Below, piece after piece: positions 57,501 to 63,287 of a DNA stretch of 64,000 bases. Numbering within the stretch: the first letter of the stretch is position 1; every line of letters begins with the position of its first letter. Source of the DNA: Spirochaetales bacterium (GTDB lineage Bacteria > Spirochaetota > Spirochaetia > JABEVK01); contig CANJXC010000010.1 in NCBI GenBank assembly GCA_947478845.1, positions 62,001 to 126,000 of the forward strand, given 5' to 3'. The position numbers and the translations under genes were made by a program. Under the pieces are notes generated by a model, which had not been told where the DNA came from, made no database searches, and worked only from the letters and a program-made list of their open reading frames with translations.

Positions 57501-57974
57501 TCAATTAACCTTATGCGAAGTAGGAATGGCAGTCCTGAGTTTCTCAAAAGTGGAAGCCCAACCGGCGCGGTAATCATGACTAGTCGCAGGATCAATATCC
57601 TTGTGGGTGAGTTTCATCCTAGTTTGATGCCCAATTTCAAAAAATCCAAGGGAAACAACCTCGATATTCTGTTCTCTTGTTTTCCACGCCCATGTGAAAG
57701 TCAGTTCAGCAAAGGGTTCGACAACTAAATACTTGCCGCAACAGGTGTGTTCGGTCCCGTTGGAGTTTACGAAGGTCACGGAAAAGCTCCCATGGACTTG
57801 CGGTTGTGAAGACGCGGACAACACAGTTCCCTTGGGATCCGACCCAAACCAAAGCCGCATGAGCTCAGGATGAGTCCAAAACTTCCACAACCTCTCAGCT
57901 GTGCAACTAAAGGTTGTGTCTAATACGACGGTTGATTGTGAATCGATGCCTTTCACTGCTTGCGCCCCGTTCAA
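57501..57974 (-). CDS. SRPBCC domain protein (AHSA1-like)
   Basis: A 157-residue START-like protein of the AHSA1/YndB type. Family landmarks are VVLDTTFSCTAERLWKFWTHPELMRLWFGSD, GSFSVTFVNSNGTEHTCCGKYLVVEPFAELTFTWAWK, TRMKLTHKDI and the C-terminal HDYRAGWASTFEKLRTAI. Such proteins bind hydrophobic ligands; the precise role is unknown. Codon use and A+T content (for example the region 57500-57760) are looser than in the housekeeping genes, which together with the decayed neighbour hints at an acquired segment. Confidence 0.82.
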   Translation of the reverse strand: MNGAQAVKGIDSQSTVVLDTTFSCTAERLWKFWTHPELMRLWFGSDPKGTVLSASSQPQVHGSFSVTFVNSNGTEHTCCGKYLVVEPFAELTFTWAWKTREQNIEVVSLGFFEIGHQTRMKLTHKDIDPATSHDYRAGWASTFEKLRTAIPTSHKVN

Positions 57975-58038
57975 ACTACCTGTTCGCAGACGTTCTCCGT
58001 CTGTAGCTTTGAATTATGGCATACACCTGTGAACGCGC

Positions 58039-60147
58039 TCAAGGTCGCCTATCCAACCAGGCGCAAAGCTCGTCCAAGCTCGCCTGTCGGTCTAGCATGC
58101 TCTGAAACACAACATCCTTGCTTGCCTTCGCCAGTGCTGCCAGCGTCTTCAGGTGCGACTGCACGCTCGCGGCCACCAAAAAGAACACGGCCTTGACGGG
58201 TTCGCCATCGGCCGCACCCCAGTCGAGTGCAGGTTTCAGATACGAAAGCGCCACAAATTCCTGGTCATGGTGGGCAACGACGGGGTTGCGAGGATGAGGA
58301 AACGCCAGCCCACGCCCCATGGCAGTGCCTGCCATCTCTTCGCGCTCGAGCATCGATTGCAAGAGGTGCTTGGACACGTTGGGAGAAAGCGGAAACCGAG
58401 CCGCCGCGTGCCGCAGCACCTCAAACGGATCAGTGGCGTTGAGCTGAAGGTCAACACCACCCCGCCGCAGCCGGTCGCCCAAGGTAGGCTCGGCGTGGCC
58501 GAGGAGAGCCCGCGCCCTTTCGAGCGCCGTGAGAATATCGGCAAGCATGTTTTCCTCACCAAGCGCCTGGGTGAAACCAATCTTGTCGAGAGTCTTGCGG
58601 ACATCGGGAACTACCGTCGCGAAGAGCAGGTGAGTGCCCTTTGCCTTGGCATTCTTGAGCAGATCCTTGAGCACCATGACGCCGCTGGCGTCGATGCTCG
58701 GCACGTGGCGCAGTCGCAAGATTCGCACCTTCGGAGCCGCCTCGATCATCAACATCGCTTCCTTGAACCGTTCCGCAGCCCCGAAAAAAAACGGGCCCTC
58801 CACTTCAAAGACTTCGACGCCCTGGGGCAATGTCATTTTGGTCAGACCGAAGGGGTCGAGGTCTTCCGGGGTGTCGCGCAGTTCGTCTCGATGCACGGTG
58901 ACCTGACTTGCCTGACTCATCTTTCGCAAAAAAAACAGCAGAGCAAACAAAATTCCCACGGGGATGGCGACGGTCAGGTCAACCAATACCGTCAACAAAA
59001 ACGTGGCGACGAGCACAAACACGTCGCCAGGGGGACCTTTGAACAAAAGGGCCACTGTGCGATGCTCACTCATGTTGTAGCTCACCGTCGCCAAGATGCC
59101 AGCCAGCACGGCCAAAGGTATAGCGCCCGCTAGGGGTGAAAGGTACAACAGCACGAACAACAGAAACACCGAGTGAACGATCCCCGCGACGGGTGTCTGG
59201 CCCCCACTCTTGATGTTGGTGGCGGTGCGAGCAATCGCACCGGTGGCTGGAATACCCCCAAAAAGCGCGCTGGCGAGGTTTGCAAACCCTTGGCCGATCA
59301 GCTCTTGGTTGGAATTGTGCTTTTTGCCAATAAGACCGTCCGCTACCACCGCAGACAACAAACTCTCAATGCCCGACAACAGGGCGATGCTGAAGGCAGG
59401 CAGCAACAACTCGCGCAAGTGCGCCACGCTAACTTGCGGAAGCTTTGGAAAAGGCAGCGTTCCCGAGATCGCGCCAAAGCGACTCCCTATAGTCTCGACC
59501 GGCCACCCGAGGGCAGCGACCAGGCCCGTGCCGAACAAGAGCGCGACCAGTGCCGCCGGAACCCGGCGATCAAGTCGGTTCAACACCGCGATGACCCCGA
59601 CGGTTCCCAATGCCAGACCGACCGCCAATCCGTTTATCCCCGAAAGGTTAGACAGGAATAACCCCCACTTTTCGAGAAAATCGGCGGGCACGGAGGCTAA
59701 ACCCAAGCCGAGAAAGTCGTTGACCTGGCTTGAAAAGATGATCACGGCGATGCCCGAGGTGAACCCAACGATAACGGGGTAGGGAATGAACTGGATCACG
59801 GTTCCTAAGCGGGCGTAGCCGAGAATGAGCAGGAACACACCAGCCATCATCGTGGCCAAGATGAGCCCATCGGGACCAAACTTGCTGACGATGCCATAAA
59901 CGATGACTATAAAGGCGCCGGTTGGCCCGCCTATCTGTACGTTGGAACCGCCGAGTGCCGAGACGAAGTAACCGCCTATGACCGCGGTCAGCAGGCCCTT
60001 GTCGGGGGTAACGCCACTGGCAATGGCAAAAGCGACAGCCAAGGGTATCGCGACGACGCCCACGATCAGTCCAGCCCCCAAGTCGGCTCCGAAGGTCTTG
60101 AGGCTGTACCCCTCGCGCAAGACTTCCCACAAACGGGGACGGTCCAT
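58039..60147 (-). CDS. SulP anion transporter fused to STAS and PTS EIIA domains
   Basis: A 702-residue fusion. Residues ~1-410 form a SulP/SLC26 transporter (LKTFGADLGAGLIVGVVAIPLAVAFAIASGVTPDKGLLTAVIGG, GGSNVQIGGPTGAFIVIVYGIV, LLPAFSIALLSGIESLLSAVVADG). Residues ~430-545 form a STAS domain (GVEVFEVEGPFFFGAAERFKEAM, LRHVPSIDASGVMVLKDLL). Residues ~560-702 are a PTS EIIA of the fructose/nitrogen class with the phosphorylatable His618 in MGRGLAFPHPRNPV. ATG 60147 follows GAGGAG; 33 open codons upstream lack support. It imports sulfate, bicarbonate or another anion, and the EIIA part suggests control by PTS phosphorylation. Confidence 0.9.
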   Translation of the reverse strand: MDRPRLWEVLREGYSLKTFGADLGAGLIVGVVAIPLAVAFAIASGVTPDKGLLTAVIGGYFVSALGGSNVQIGGPTGAFIVIVYGIVSKFGPDGLILATMMAGVFLLILGYARLGTVIQFIPYPVIVGFTSGIAVIIFSSQVNDFLGLGLASVPADFLEKWGLFLSNLSGINGLAVGLALGTVGVIAVLNRLDRRVPAALVALLFGTGLVAALGWPVETIGSRFGAISGTLPFPKLPQVSVAHLRELLLPAFSIALLSGIESLLSAVVADGLIGKKHNSNQELIGQGFANLASALFGGIPATGAIARTATNIKSGGQTPVAGIVHSVFLLFVLLYLSPLAGAIPLAVLAGILATVSYNMSEHRTVALLFKGPPGDVFVLVATFLLTVLVDLTVAIPVGILFALLFFLRKMSQASQVTVHRDELRDTPEDLDPFGLTKMTLPQGVEVFEVEGPFFFGAAERFKEAMLMIEAAPKVRILRLRHVPSIDASGVMVLKDLLKNAKAKGTHLLFATVVPDVRKTLDKIGFTQALGEENMLADILTALERARALLGHAEPTLGDRLRRGGVDLQLNATDPFEVLRHAAARFPLSPNVSKHLLQSMLEREEMAGTAMGRGLAFPHPRNPVVAHHDQEFVALSYLKPALDWGAADGEPVKAVFFLVAASVQSHLKTLAALAKASKDVVFQSMLDRQASLDELCAWLDRRP

Positions 60148-60177
60148 GCACACTCCTCGAACAGCACTCAGGCCTGC

Positions 60178-60200
60178 ATACTTCTTATAGGCATAAGTAT
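60178..60200. promoter_or_regulatory. Inverted repeat upstream of the SulP fusion gene
   Basis: Arms ATACTT/AAGTAT enclose a second pair CTTAT/ATAAG in a 23-bp A+T-rich element 31 bp before the gene start. A TTGCCA at 60218-60213 and TATGCC at 60195-60190 (17-bp spacing, leftward) overlap it, so it could be an operator over a weak promoter. By pattern only. Confidence 0.35.
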
Positions 60201-60295
60201 TTTGGACACCCTTGGCAAGGGGGTTGCGCTTTCCCACGGGCGTCACCGGGACTAGAATAGTGGCAGGGGTTCTCCTTAAGTTGTTTGGGCCGGTC

Positions 60296-61918
60296 TTATT
60301 CGCTGTCTTCGGCTGTGTACTCGGTGTCGATTTCGCCCGAACCGGTCGAATCGATGCCTACGCTCAGGCCCTTGCTGTTTCCCTTCCAGTCGGCAAAGTT
60401 GATGTACATGGCCCCGCCCTTGGGCAGGTCGAGGTCGATGGCAGAGAAGTCGTCTTCGTCCTTTGTGGTGACGCGCTCTAAGTAGAGGTCGAACTTGCCG
60501 TCGCCAGCAAGTTTTTTGGCATCGACGACCAAGTCGCCTTTTTTGGCATCGACCTTGATCGAAATTGAGCCACCTTTCTTCATGCTGGTTCCCTTGAGGT
60601 CGAACGTGTAGTCGGCGCCAGCAAGGTTGTCTAGCCCCACCGTCAGGTTGGGGGACTCCGTGCCAAGGGTGGTATAGGTCAAGGTGTCGTCGGAGGGATC
60701 AAACTCGACGACATCTTTCTGCTTCGGATCAAGTTCGATTCCTTCCACGCCATACACATAGCCGGGGCCGATGATGACCAGATCGGAGGGCGACGACTTC
60801 TTCAGATCAGAACCGTCGAGGACGATTTTCACCTTCACGCCGTCGGGGATCTTGTAGGACGGTTCTGGACTCTCGAGCGAGGTTGCGTTCTTGAAGAACC
60901 TCCACTCTGCCCCCGGGATCTCGTGAACGAACTTGCCATTGACCCAGCCCAAACGGCGCTTGGCGTCGTCGGTAATGAGCACGTGGCCTTGGCCCTCGAG
61001 GAAGATTTCGTTGAAAGCCTTCCTCGGATTCTTTGCCTGACTCTTCTTGGAGGCCAGTGCTCCGCTGGGGTTCGTAGCGTCGGTCGGCTCCCCATCGGGG
61101 GCAAGGAACGGGGCCGTCATCACTCCGAAGCGGGCGCTTGTCGGCGTGAGTACCAAGGTCAGCGTGTCGGCGTCGCCATCGTAGGTTTCGGGTTCCACTT
61201 CCGGATTGATGCTGGCCTCGTAGCTCCAGGTGTTCTTCTTGGTGTCGATGAGCAGATCGCGCTCGTCGCCGGGGTAGTTGTTATCGTAAACCTTGATGGA
61301 ATATTGCCCACGGCCCCTGTCCTCGATGGCATAGGGGGTGATGGCATGCCCGCCCGTCAGGTCGCGCTTCCACAATCCGATGGAAAAGCTCTCGCCCGAC
61401 TTGGAGGCCTTTTTGAGGACGTTGAGCAACTGGGCCGGGGTGTCGCTGATGGTCTTTTCGGGAATGGCATCCACGCACTGCGTGGCCCACCAGTAGGCGA
61501 TTTCATGCTGAAGGTTAGCATTGGCCAACTTGAGGTCCGTCGTCTTGGTTCCTCCGAACGACTTAGGCGCGAGTTTCCCCTGGTAGAACAAAAGGCTCAG
61601 TACGGCCATGCCTTCGCAGTGTCCGGCGCTCATTTCCGCATTGGTTTGTTCCATCCACTGCTTGGCGGGAGGACTCAGGATGATCTTGTTGCCCTTCTTC
61701 TGGCTAATCACGGCATCGCCAAACATTCTGACCATTTCTACCGGAGTAAGGTTCTGCACGCCAGCTTCATCGCCATAGTTGGCGAAACCAAAGCCATTGT
61801 TTTGCGGCCGAAAGCCCAAATCGAACACAAGCTTGCCTTCGGACCAAAGACTGTTACTACCGAACCCCAGCACCAGTACCAAAAGCGGCAGGATCGTTTT
61901 TAAGCAAAAGTTAGACAT
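60296..61918 (-). CDS. Secreted protein with papain-like Cys/His/Asn signature
   Basis: A 540-residue exported protein with a signal peptide (LKTILPLLVLVLGFGSNSLWS). I cannot name the family. In the N-terminal half, three motifs occur in papain/C39-like order and spacing: Cys101 in MSAGHCEGMAVLSLLFY, His191 in LTGGHAITPYAIEDRG and an Asp-Asn-Asn at 212-214 in IKVYDNNYPGDERDLLIDT. This suggests a cysteine peptidase or transpeptidase domain. The C-terminal ~230 residues are beta-rich and acidic (repeated strands rich in Asp/Lys/Gly). It stands alone, leftward, 148 bp upstream of the SulP gene. Confidence 0.75.
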   Translation of the reverse strand: MSNFCLKTILPLLVLVLGFGSNSLWSEGKLVFDLGFRPQNNGFGFANYGDEAGVQNLTPVEMVRMFGDAVISQKKGNKIILSPPAKQWMEQTNAEMSAGHCEGMAVLSLLFYQGKLAPKSFGGTKTTDLKLANANLQHEIAYWWATQCVDAIPEKTISDTPAQLLNVLKKASKSGESFSIGLWKRDLTGGHAITPYAIEDRGRGQYSIKVYDNNYPGDERDLLIDTKKNTWSYEASINPEVEPETYDGDADTLTLVLTPTSARFGVMTAPFLAPDGEPTDATNPSGALASKKSQAKNPRKAFNEIFLEGQGHVLITDDAKRRLGWVNGKFVHEIPGAEWRFFKNATSLESPEPSYKIPDGVKVKIVLDGSDLKKSSPSDLVIIGPGYVYGVEGIELDPKQKDVVEFDPSDDTLTYTTLGTESPNLTVGLDNLAGADYTFDLKGTSMKKGGSISIKVDAKKGDLVVDAKKLAGDGKFDLYLERVTTKDEDDFSAIDLDLPKGGAMYINFADWKGNSKGLSVGIDSTGSGEIDTEYTAEDSE

Positions 61919-62056: not shown

Positions 62057-62455
62057 CTAGTTCGCCCAGTTCTCCAAGTGGAGGCCCTCAATCCTTGAGA
62101 GCTCTCTGACATTGTTGGTCACCAAGACTCCATTGTAGAACTTCGTTGTGGCCGCGATAAGGAGATCGTTTGGCCCAACAACTCTTCCCGAGGACTCGGC
62201 GAGGCATCTGAGGTCCGCGTAGACATAAGAAACCTGGTCATCAAATGACTTGATCTCAAATGTTTGTAAAAACGCCTCTACCTTTTCGAGATTGCTCTCG
62301 CGTTGGTTGCTTTTGTAGGCTCCGAGCAGGAGTTCTGCCTTTACAACGGACGGGATCTTGATTTCATCGGGCGATAAGGCCAAAAGTTTGGCCTTGATTT
62401 TCGGAAACTTGCCCTTCAGATAGCAAATGCATGTGTTGGCATCGAGGAAGTACAT
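62057..62455 (-). CDS. vapC: PIN-domain toxin (VapC type), module 1
   Basis: A 132-residue ribonuclease toxin. PIN acidic residues are visible: Asp5 (MYFLDANTCICYLKG), Glu in SVVKAELLLGAYKS, Asp in GPNDLLIAATTKFYNGVLVTNN. The FLDAN…I.YLKG start and the VTNNVRELSRIEGLHLENW end are close to chromosomal VapC toxins of the FitB/VapC clade that cut initiator tRNA or other RNAs. The gene is coupled to its antitoxin (TGATG). Confidence 0.92.
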   Translation of the reverse strand: MYFLDANTCICYLKGKFPKIKAKLLALSPDEIKIPSVVKAELLLGAYKSNQRESNLEKVEAFLQTFEIKSFDDQVSYVYADLRCLAESSGRVVGPNDLLIAATTKFYNGVLVTNNVRELSRIEGLHLENWAN

Positions 62456-62903: not shown

Positions 62904-63287
62904 CTAAACTGATTTTCCTTTTTCGAAATATCGCACCCCACTCAGCGACCTGAAATGGGCATCCTGGGTCCAGAGCGTGCAACCAAGCCTCTGTGCGGTC
63001 GCATAGATGGTACTGTCAGCCATGGCTAAGCCCAGGTCGCGACCCAGTTTTGCAGCATAGATCGCCATATCTCCATCGAGCGACACCACTTGCCCCTGTT
63101 TCATATGTGCAACGGCAAGCAACGCCCTGTCTTCATCCAGTTCAATAAGAAGCTTCTTGAACACCTCATACAGCGTGATCGCTGGGACGACAAGATCCGA
63201 AGTCGCTTGGACCACCGATGCAACCTGCTCCCCAACATTGCTGCCGGCGAAATACTCCAGCCAGCAAGAAGAATCAACAATGTTCAT
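62904..63287 (-). CDS. PIN-domain toxin, module 2
   Basis: A 127-residue PIN protein with Asp5 (MNIVDSSCWLEYF), Glu in ITLYEVFKKLL, Asp in LAMADSTIYATAQRLG and Asp in LWTQDAHF, the four acidic metal-binding residues of active PIN ribonucleases. Its start overlaps the antitoxin stop by 4 bp. The attC-like site follows its stop. Confidence 0.92.
   Translation of the reverse strand: MNIVDSSCWLEYFAGSNVGEQVASVVQATSDLVVPAITLYEVFKKLLIELDEDRALLAVAHMKQGQVVSLDGDMAIYAAKLGRDLGLAMADSTIYATAQRLGCTLWTQDAHFRSLSGVRYFEKGKSV

Follow-up and report, generated by a model that had tools for sequence, protein, structure and literature searches.

A spirochaetal SulP-STAS transporter gene carries a C-terminal PTS EIIA domain with a conserved predicted phosphorylation site

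The window, by which we mean the whole stretch of 64,000 nucleotides analysed from contig CANJXC010000010.1 of a Spirochaetales assembly (GCA_947478845.1), holds on its minus strand a gene of 702 codons at 58039–60147, with an ATG at 60147 and a stop codon at 58041–58039. A GTG at 60246 is a longer alternative start for this open reading frame; the ATG was favoured because the relative G001, a genome of the same genus, has the same opening residues. Pfam searches placed three domains in the product: a Sulfate_transp membrane domain at residues 20–382 (59002–60090, minus strand; PF00916, 261 bits against a cut-off of 23.2, E = 1.6e-77), a STAS domain at residues 442–527 (58567–58824, minus strand; PF01740, 56.7 bits against 22.6, E = 2.3e-15), and a PTS_EIIA_2 domain at residues 565–698 (58054–58455, minus strand; PF00359, 72.2 bits against 27, E = 5.7e-20), the last also matched to PtsN structures by phmmer. 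All three lie above the curated cut-offs, which excludes chance matches. The initial annotation had described SulP, STAS, and EIIA as parts of one protein, and this three-domain order in a single gene is confirmed. An assembly or frameshift artefact was considered and ruled out, because three other spirochaete genomes have the identical domain order in a single open frame with no stops. An AlphaFold2 model built from a 7-row alignment was of poor quality, at a mean pLDDT of 56.9, with values mostly of 70–85 in the STAS domain and mostly of 30–50 in the EIIA domain. A promoter and terminator scan of positions 57900–60600 returned two promoter-like sites (0.7 expected), neither of them upstream of the SulP-STAS-EIIA gene on its own strand. 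Elsewhere in the window, two small minus-strand open reading frames (62057–62455 and 62904–63287) resemble PIN-domain (VapC-like) toxins by eye.

From its Sulfate_transp and STAS domains, the protein is a predicted anion transporter of the SulP (SLC26-type) group. Its score against the TIGR00815 sulP subfamily model was 356.9 bits, compared to a cut-off of 380.45, placing it in the superfamily and narrowly outside the subfamily model. The best NCBIfam match was DauA (457.7 bits over residues 9–546), short of the equivalog cut-off of 614, and the BicA equivalog scored 278.4 bits, far below its cut-off of 880. Among solved structures, the membrane domain best matched 6ki1_A (E = 9.5e-52), which is labelled 'Low affinity sulfate transporter' and which we take to be BicA, the cyanobacterial bicarbonate SulP. 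Glu261 (59365–59367, minus strand), which is conserved in all four known fusions, aligns with an Asp of this chain, and Arg307 in the motif GAIARTA (59227–59229, minus strand), which has Arg counterparts in prestin (GSFSRSA) and E. coli DauA (AAIARSA), aligns with a Gly; in 6ki1, this Asp and Gly presumably bind sodium. Because Glu261 and Arg307 are as in DauA, as opposed to the Asp and Gly of 6ki1, BicA-like sodium coupling is less likely. The predicted anion site is thus closer to DauA and SLC26 proteins than to BicA, and the substrate is therefore likely to be a proton-coupled or exchange-type anion, with C4-dicarboxylate, sulfate, and bicarbonate as the likely candidates. Neighbouring genes give conflicting hints: by eye, rhodanese-like and CoA-disulfide-reductase-like genes lie near the fusion gene of G001, whereas an unfused SulP gene of Pontiellaceae bacterium B12219 has near it a gene on the opposite strand that is carbonic-anhydrase-like by eye and a CitMHS/ArsB-type transporter. 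A second SulP gene in the window's own genome (L094:6558-8762, contig C15) encodes a SulP-STAS-cNMP_binding protein, with the cNMP domain after STAS according to Pfam; thus, both SulPs found in this genome have extra, different domains.

His618 (58294–58296, minus strand), in the motif LAFPHPR, aligns to the PH motif in PtsN proteins of known structure and is the EIIA active-site histidine as predicted by this alignment. The claim in the initial annotation that the domain keeps its phosphorylatable histidine therefore stands, as a predicted site, and the residue is accompanied by Arg602 (58342–58344, minus strand), 16 positions before it and assigned by spacing and alignment, and by Arg620 (58288–58290, minus strand), two positions after it. 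These correspond to R51 and R69 of Neisseria IIA-Ntr, whose active site is described in the available text of PMC1201152 as H67 with R51 and R69. All three residues are identical in the four known fusions. A second EIIA histidine, His665 (58153–58155, minus strand), corresponds to H120 of E. coli IIA-Ntr and H111 of IIA-Mtl; it is kept in three of the four fusions and is Tyr in that of genome G068, a change we counted against a regulatory role for the domain. The second histidine of IIA-Ntr proteins is thought to be inactive in phosphate transfer (PMC1201152, same portion). Across 63 distinct EIIA domains compared, a set without the fusion of genome G402, the first histidine was present in all and the second in 55. 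The domain scored 34.4 bits against the PtsN equivalog model TIGR01419, below its cut-off of 138.7.

To establish how widely the fusion occurs, we searched 394 genomes of the class with the STAS-EIIA part as query and obtained one match covering both domains in at least three: the window's own genome (G000), G001, and G068, with identities of 64% for G001 and 41% for G068. In 392 genomes of the phylum, a profile search found the fusion in at least three, namely G000, G068, and G402, the last from another class; G001 was absent from the 38 genomes matched in this search. Both counts are lower bounds: no more than six candidates were scored per genome, the class search counts only the matches listed, and fusions of very divergent sequence could be ranked low. 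Within the window's own family, at least two of seven genomes in the class search (G000 and G001) had the fusion, a patchy occurrence that we counted against a regulatory reading, as we did the genes around the fusion, which differ among carrier genomes by eye. In G001, an ArsR-family regulator gene (L050:4383-4724) stops a few bases before the start of the SulP-EIIA gene and the two are therefore probably co-transcribed there; in the window, the list of open reading frames contains no ArsR-family gene preceding the SulP-EIIA gene. Beyond the phylum, a contig scan with two short STAS-half patterns, a weak test in which 7 of 45 stretches were confirmed, returned L050 as its sole fusion, which was taken as G001's own record. 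A plasmid search matched 12 of 72,556 records, none with a place covering 80% of the STAS-EIIA part. In Pontiellaceae bacterium B12219 (Kiritimatiellota), a zinc-ribbon-EIIA gene comes 17 bases after the unfused SulP-STAS gene, and an EIIA-CBS gene lies upstream, an arrangement that is a two-gene counterpart of the SulP/EIIA pairing in another phylum; both of these EIIAs fall on long, unplaced branches of the EIIA tree.

Compared to the window protein, the membrane domain was 78% identical in G001, 66% in G068, and 54% in G402; the corresponding values were 66%, 40%, and 45% for STAS and 59%, 41%, and 23% for EIIA. Phylogenetic trees joined the fusions of G000, G001, and G068 in one clade, both for SulP (support 100/99, and 100/98 in a reduced row set) and for the fused EIIA domains (68 rows; 98/85), and the rows nearest to the fused EIIA clade were free-standing EIIAs of family f36. 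The SulP tree comprised 27 rows from 37 matches, with identical copies and matches of fewer than 430 query positions dropped; the reduced tree omitted four more rows, these being the own paralogue, DauA, and two near-identical Porphyromonas sequences. The G402 fusion fell outside this clade in both the SulP and EIIA trees, which contain long branches and rows flagged for odd composition, G402 included; holding all four fusions together was not rejected for either SulP (p-AU 0.091) or EIIA (p-AU 0.363).

EIIA is the most variable domain of the fusion, which we counted against a regulatory reading. The same pattern bears on the alternative that EIIA serves only in structure or assembly, with its fold kept and perhaps phosphorylatable and with transport unaffected. 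This alternative gains from the faster divergence of EIIA relative to the membrane domain and from the many SulP-STAS proteins of the class that have no EIIA, given a fusion count as low as the one above. Arg602, His618, and Arg620 are nonetheless retained in all four fusions despite EIIA identities of 41% and 23% in two of them; because a domain with a structural role alone could do without these residues, their retention disfavours this explanation, which we judge unlikely.

The initial annotation also noted that no other PTS gene lies in the window, which holds for the families searched, and proposed that the absence of any phosphodonor from the genome would argue for a purely structural role. 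We searched the genome (2.99 Mb in 22 contigs, 99.75% complete) and found one EI on contig C2, one HPr with an adjoining HPr kinase (HprK) on contig C17, and two further EIIA-2 domains on contigs C4 and C9, the window being on C10; a phosphodonor is therefore present, and this check did not refute the initial interpretation. His15 and Ser46 of HPr are present. In EI, the motif GGTTNHTAILAR (GGTTNHTAI) has Asn where the search pattern expected Ser, so that the pattern was unmatched, and its His is present; we counted this against the regulatory reading. EI was also found in all eight further genomes tested, among them G001, G068, and G402. The three EIIA-2 domains found in the genome are the SulP fusion, an HTH_17-EIIA protein assigned by Pfam, and an EIIA frame that begins directly past the atpC stop codon as the last gene of the F1Fo cluster (L093:1208-8163, contig C9), in which alpha is unfused (513 aa) and the free EIIA has an intact His. 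No EIIC (PF02378), EIIB (PF02302), or mannose EIIA (PF03610), the three families tested, was found in the genome; the same searches were positive in control genomes for PTS_EIIC (7 of 14), PTS_IIB (6 of 14), and EIIA-man (5 of 14). With genes for EI, HPr, and HPr kinase but none found for the tested permease families, this PTS looks regulatory; it seems to carry no sugar and probably serves in signalling only. The same searches bear on the idea that the fusion belongs to a phosphorylating, group-translocating PTS permease that modifies its substrate. EIIA of classic PTS permeases does hand its phosphate to EIIB, as is established (PMC1201152, available text), but neither EIIB (PF02302) nor EIIC (PF02378) was found, and the membrane part here is SulP rather than EIIC by Pfam. 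We regard group translocation as highly improbable.

Our preferred reading, to which we give moderate confidence, is that the protein is a SulP transporter whose cytosolic EIIA domain would be functional as the last phosphate acceptor in a regulatory PTS; the lack of the tested permease families makes such a regulatory role more likely. Phosphate would pass from PEP through EI and His15 of HPr to His618, a route suggested by the intact sites, and the phosphorylation state of His618 would track the PEP:pyruvate ratio and also how much free HPr is available, a quantity that HPr kinase could lower by way of Ser46. In E. coli, unphosphorylated PtsN binds and inhibits the transporter YcgO (PMC11808508, available portion). 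By analogy, and less certainly than the phosphate route, dephospho-EIIA may dock on STAS or on the membrane domain, thereby restraining transport, and phosphorylation would free it, such that the transporter would be open at high PEP relative to pyruvate. This sign of control, with restraint by dephospho-EIIA and release by phospho-EIIA, is a guess by analogy that could about equally well be wrong. Carbon status could in this manner set anion transport directly. The initial annotation had stated that the EIIA domain ties anion uptake to phosphotransferase signalling; with a donor present, such a tie is the best reading, but it reaches beyond what sequence alone can establish, and 'uptake' was an assumption.

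Signalling might also run in the opposite direction, with the transporter as sensor and EIIA as output, so that anion flux would alter the conformation of EIIA or its acceptance of phosphate from HPr and thereby inform the PTS. With a single HPr serving only three EIIA-2 acceptors found in this genome, any one of them could affect the rest, and another EIIA of this genome is joined to an HTH domain; we found no sequence features, however, that distinguish this direction, and we think it quite improbable.

EIIA domains are attached to many other proteins in this lineage. EIIA_2 was present in all 31 genomes compared (the window's own and 30 relatives), in many cases in long open frames. Among the matches listed, and with SulP frames set aside, we took 36 long EIIA frames and scanned 20 with Pfam, which identified nine Na_H_Exchanger-EIIA, three amino-acid-permease-EIIA, and four ATP synthase alpha-EIIA proteins, together with one each of CNNM-CBS-EIIA, glycosyltransferase-EIIA, PRD-regulator-EIIA, and EIIA-diadenylate cyclase. 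Thus, EIIA plug-ins are already widespread in the class, and what is new is SulP as the partner.

F1 alpha subunits with a C-terminal EIIA_2 were seen at L087:429-2606, L082:521-2707, L071:408-2603, and L078:420-2606, and genomes carrying this fusion include G041, G047, G163, G228, and G174. The test stretch of 287 aa, which joins the end of alpha to EIIA, was matched over its whole length in 15 of 297 class genomes, and three further class genomes have matches that are probably cut by contig ends. Both EIIA histidines are kept in all four alpha-EIIA fusions examined, and this fusion may be even more unexpected than that with SulP. In G018 (L073:7-2816), a V-type ATPase subunit I gene and a gene that is subunit-K-like by eye are followed by an EIIA gene, whose product groups in the EIIA tree with the EIIA of the F1Fo cluster in the window's own genome (99/82). 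In G020 (L072:474-1655), EIIA is joined to DacZ_P and a DAC diadenylate cyclase domain, a possible link from the PTS to c-di-AMP. CorC and CNNM proteins are kin. A CNNM-CBS-EIIA frame occurs in G002, of the same genus as the window genome (L084:133-1251), and the PtsN-binding region of E. coli YcgO has been proposed to be a CorC domain (PMC11808508, available portion). By eye, free EIIAs akin to the fused one lie directly before a transketolase-like gene at L034, L042, and L044, and HTH-EIIA genes at L037, L039, L040, and L102 are followed by a large membrane protein similar to subunits of proton-pumping NADH dehydrogenase or of hydrogenase.

These arrangements invite the tentative proposal, to which we give rather less than an even chance, that a permease-free PTS may act as a signalling bus for the ion and energy economy of this spirochaete lineage. 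PEP status would be relayed by EI and HPr to three EIIAs, reaching transcription through HTH-EIIA, the F1Fo ATP synthase, and anion transport, with the SulP fusion as the anion branch; across the class, the same module is also found on Na+/H+ exchangers, amino-acid permeases, a CNNM protein, diadenylate cyclase, and ATP synthase alpha. The fusion suggests a purpose for PTS systems without sugar permeases in spirochaetes, and the placement of EIIA on F1 alpha and in gene clusters of two kinds of rotary ATPase would make PEP control of the proton economy a general, testable idea. Targets of PtsN-type EIIAs, which act in trans on transporters, are hard to find, and a covalent fusion names its target; as a one-polypeptide system, it would allow transport to be related to a known phosphate at a known histidine. 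Among the open-access papers listed, judged by titles and the starts of abstracts, we recognised no description of a SulP-EIIA or ATP-synthase-alpha-EIIA fusion; because this coverage was mostly open-access, the negative result is weak evidence of novelty.

Several known systems share parts of this design. DauA (YchM), the E. coli SulP-STAS C4-dicarboxylate transporter, has in common with the window protein the IAR[ST]A motif and the Glu of an ESLL motif, but its gene encodes only 559 aa and leaves no room for an EIIA domain. BicA differs in having the Asp and Gly of 6ki1 at the positions of Glu261 and Arg307, and the BicA model likewise has no EIIA. With PtsN (EIIA-Ntr), the fused domain shares its family and its active-site residues. 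In the PtsN–YcgO system, as described in the available portion of PMC11808508, the phosphorylation state of an EIIA controls an ion transporter, as we propose here; there, however, a free-standing PtsN acts in trans on a cation antiporter, whereas here the EIIA and an anion transporter form one covalent chain. Brucella melitensis lacks PTS permeases but has EI, HPr/NPr, HPr kinase, and EIIA, a set taken as regulatory in the accessible text of PMC2937029; a permease-less PTS in Treponema denticola comes to us through a reference title and a mention in that source. The Brucella EIIAs are free proteins according to the same text, whereas in the window's genome one is fused to a transporter and another is encoded directly behind the ATP synthase genes. 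Further parallels are the Na_H_Exchanger-, AA_permease-, and F1 alpha-EIIA fusions of other spirochaetes, which likewise have, on a membrane or energy protein, a C-terminal EIIA_2 with the active His and differ in the partner; SulP-EIIA (at least 3 of 394 class genomes) is rarer than alpha-EIIA (15 of 297).
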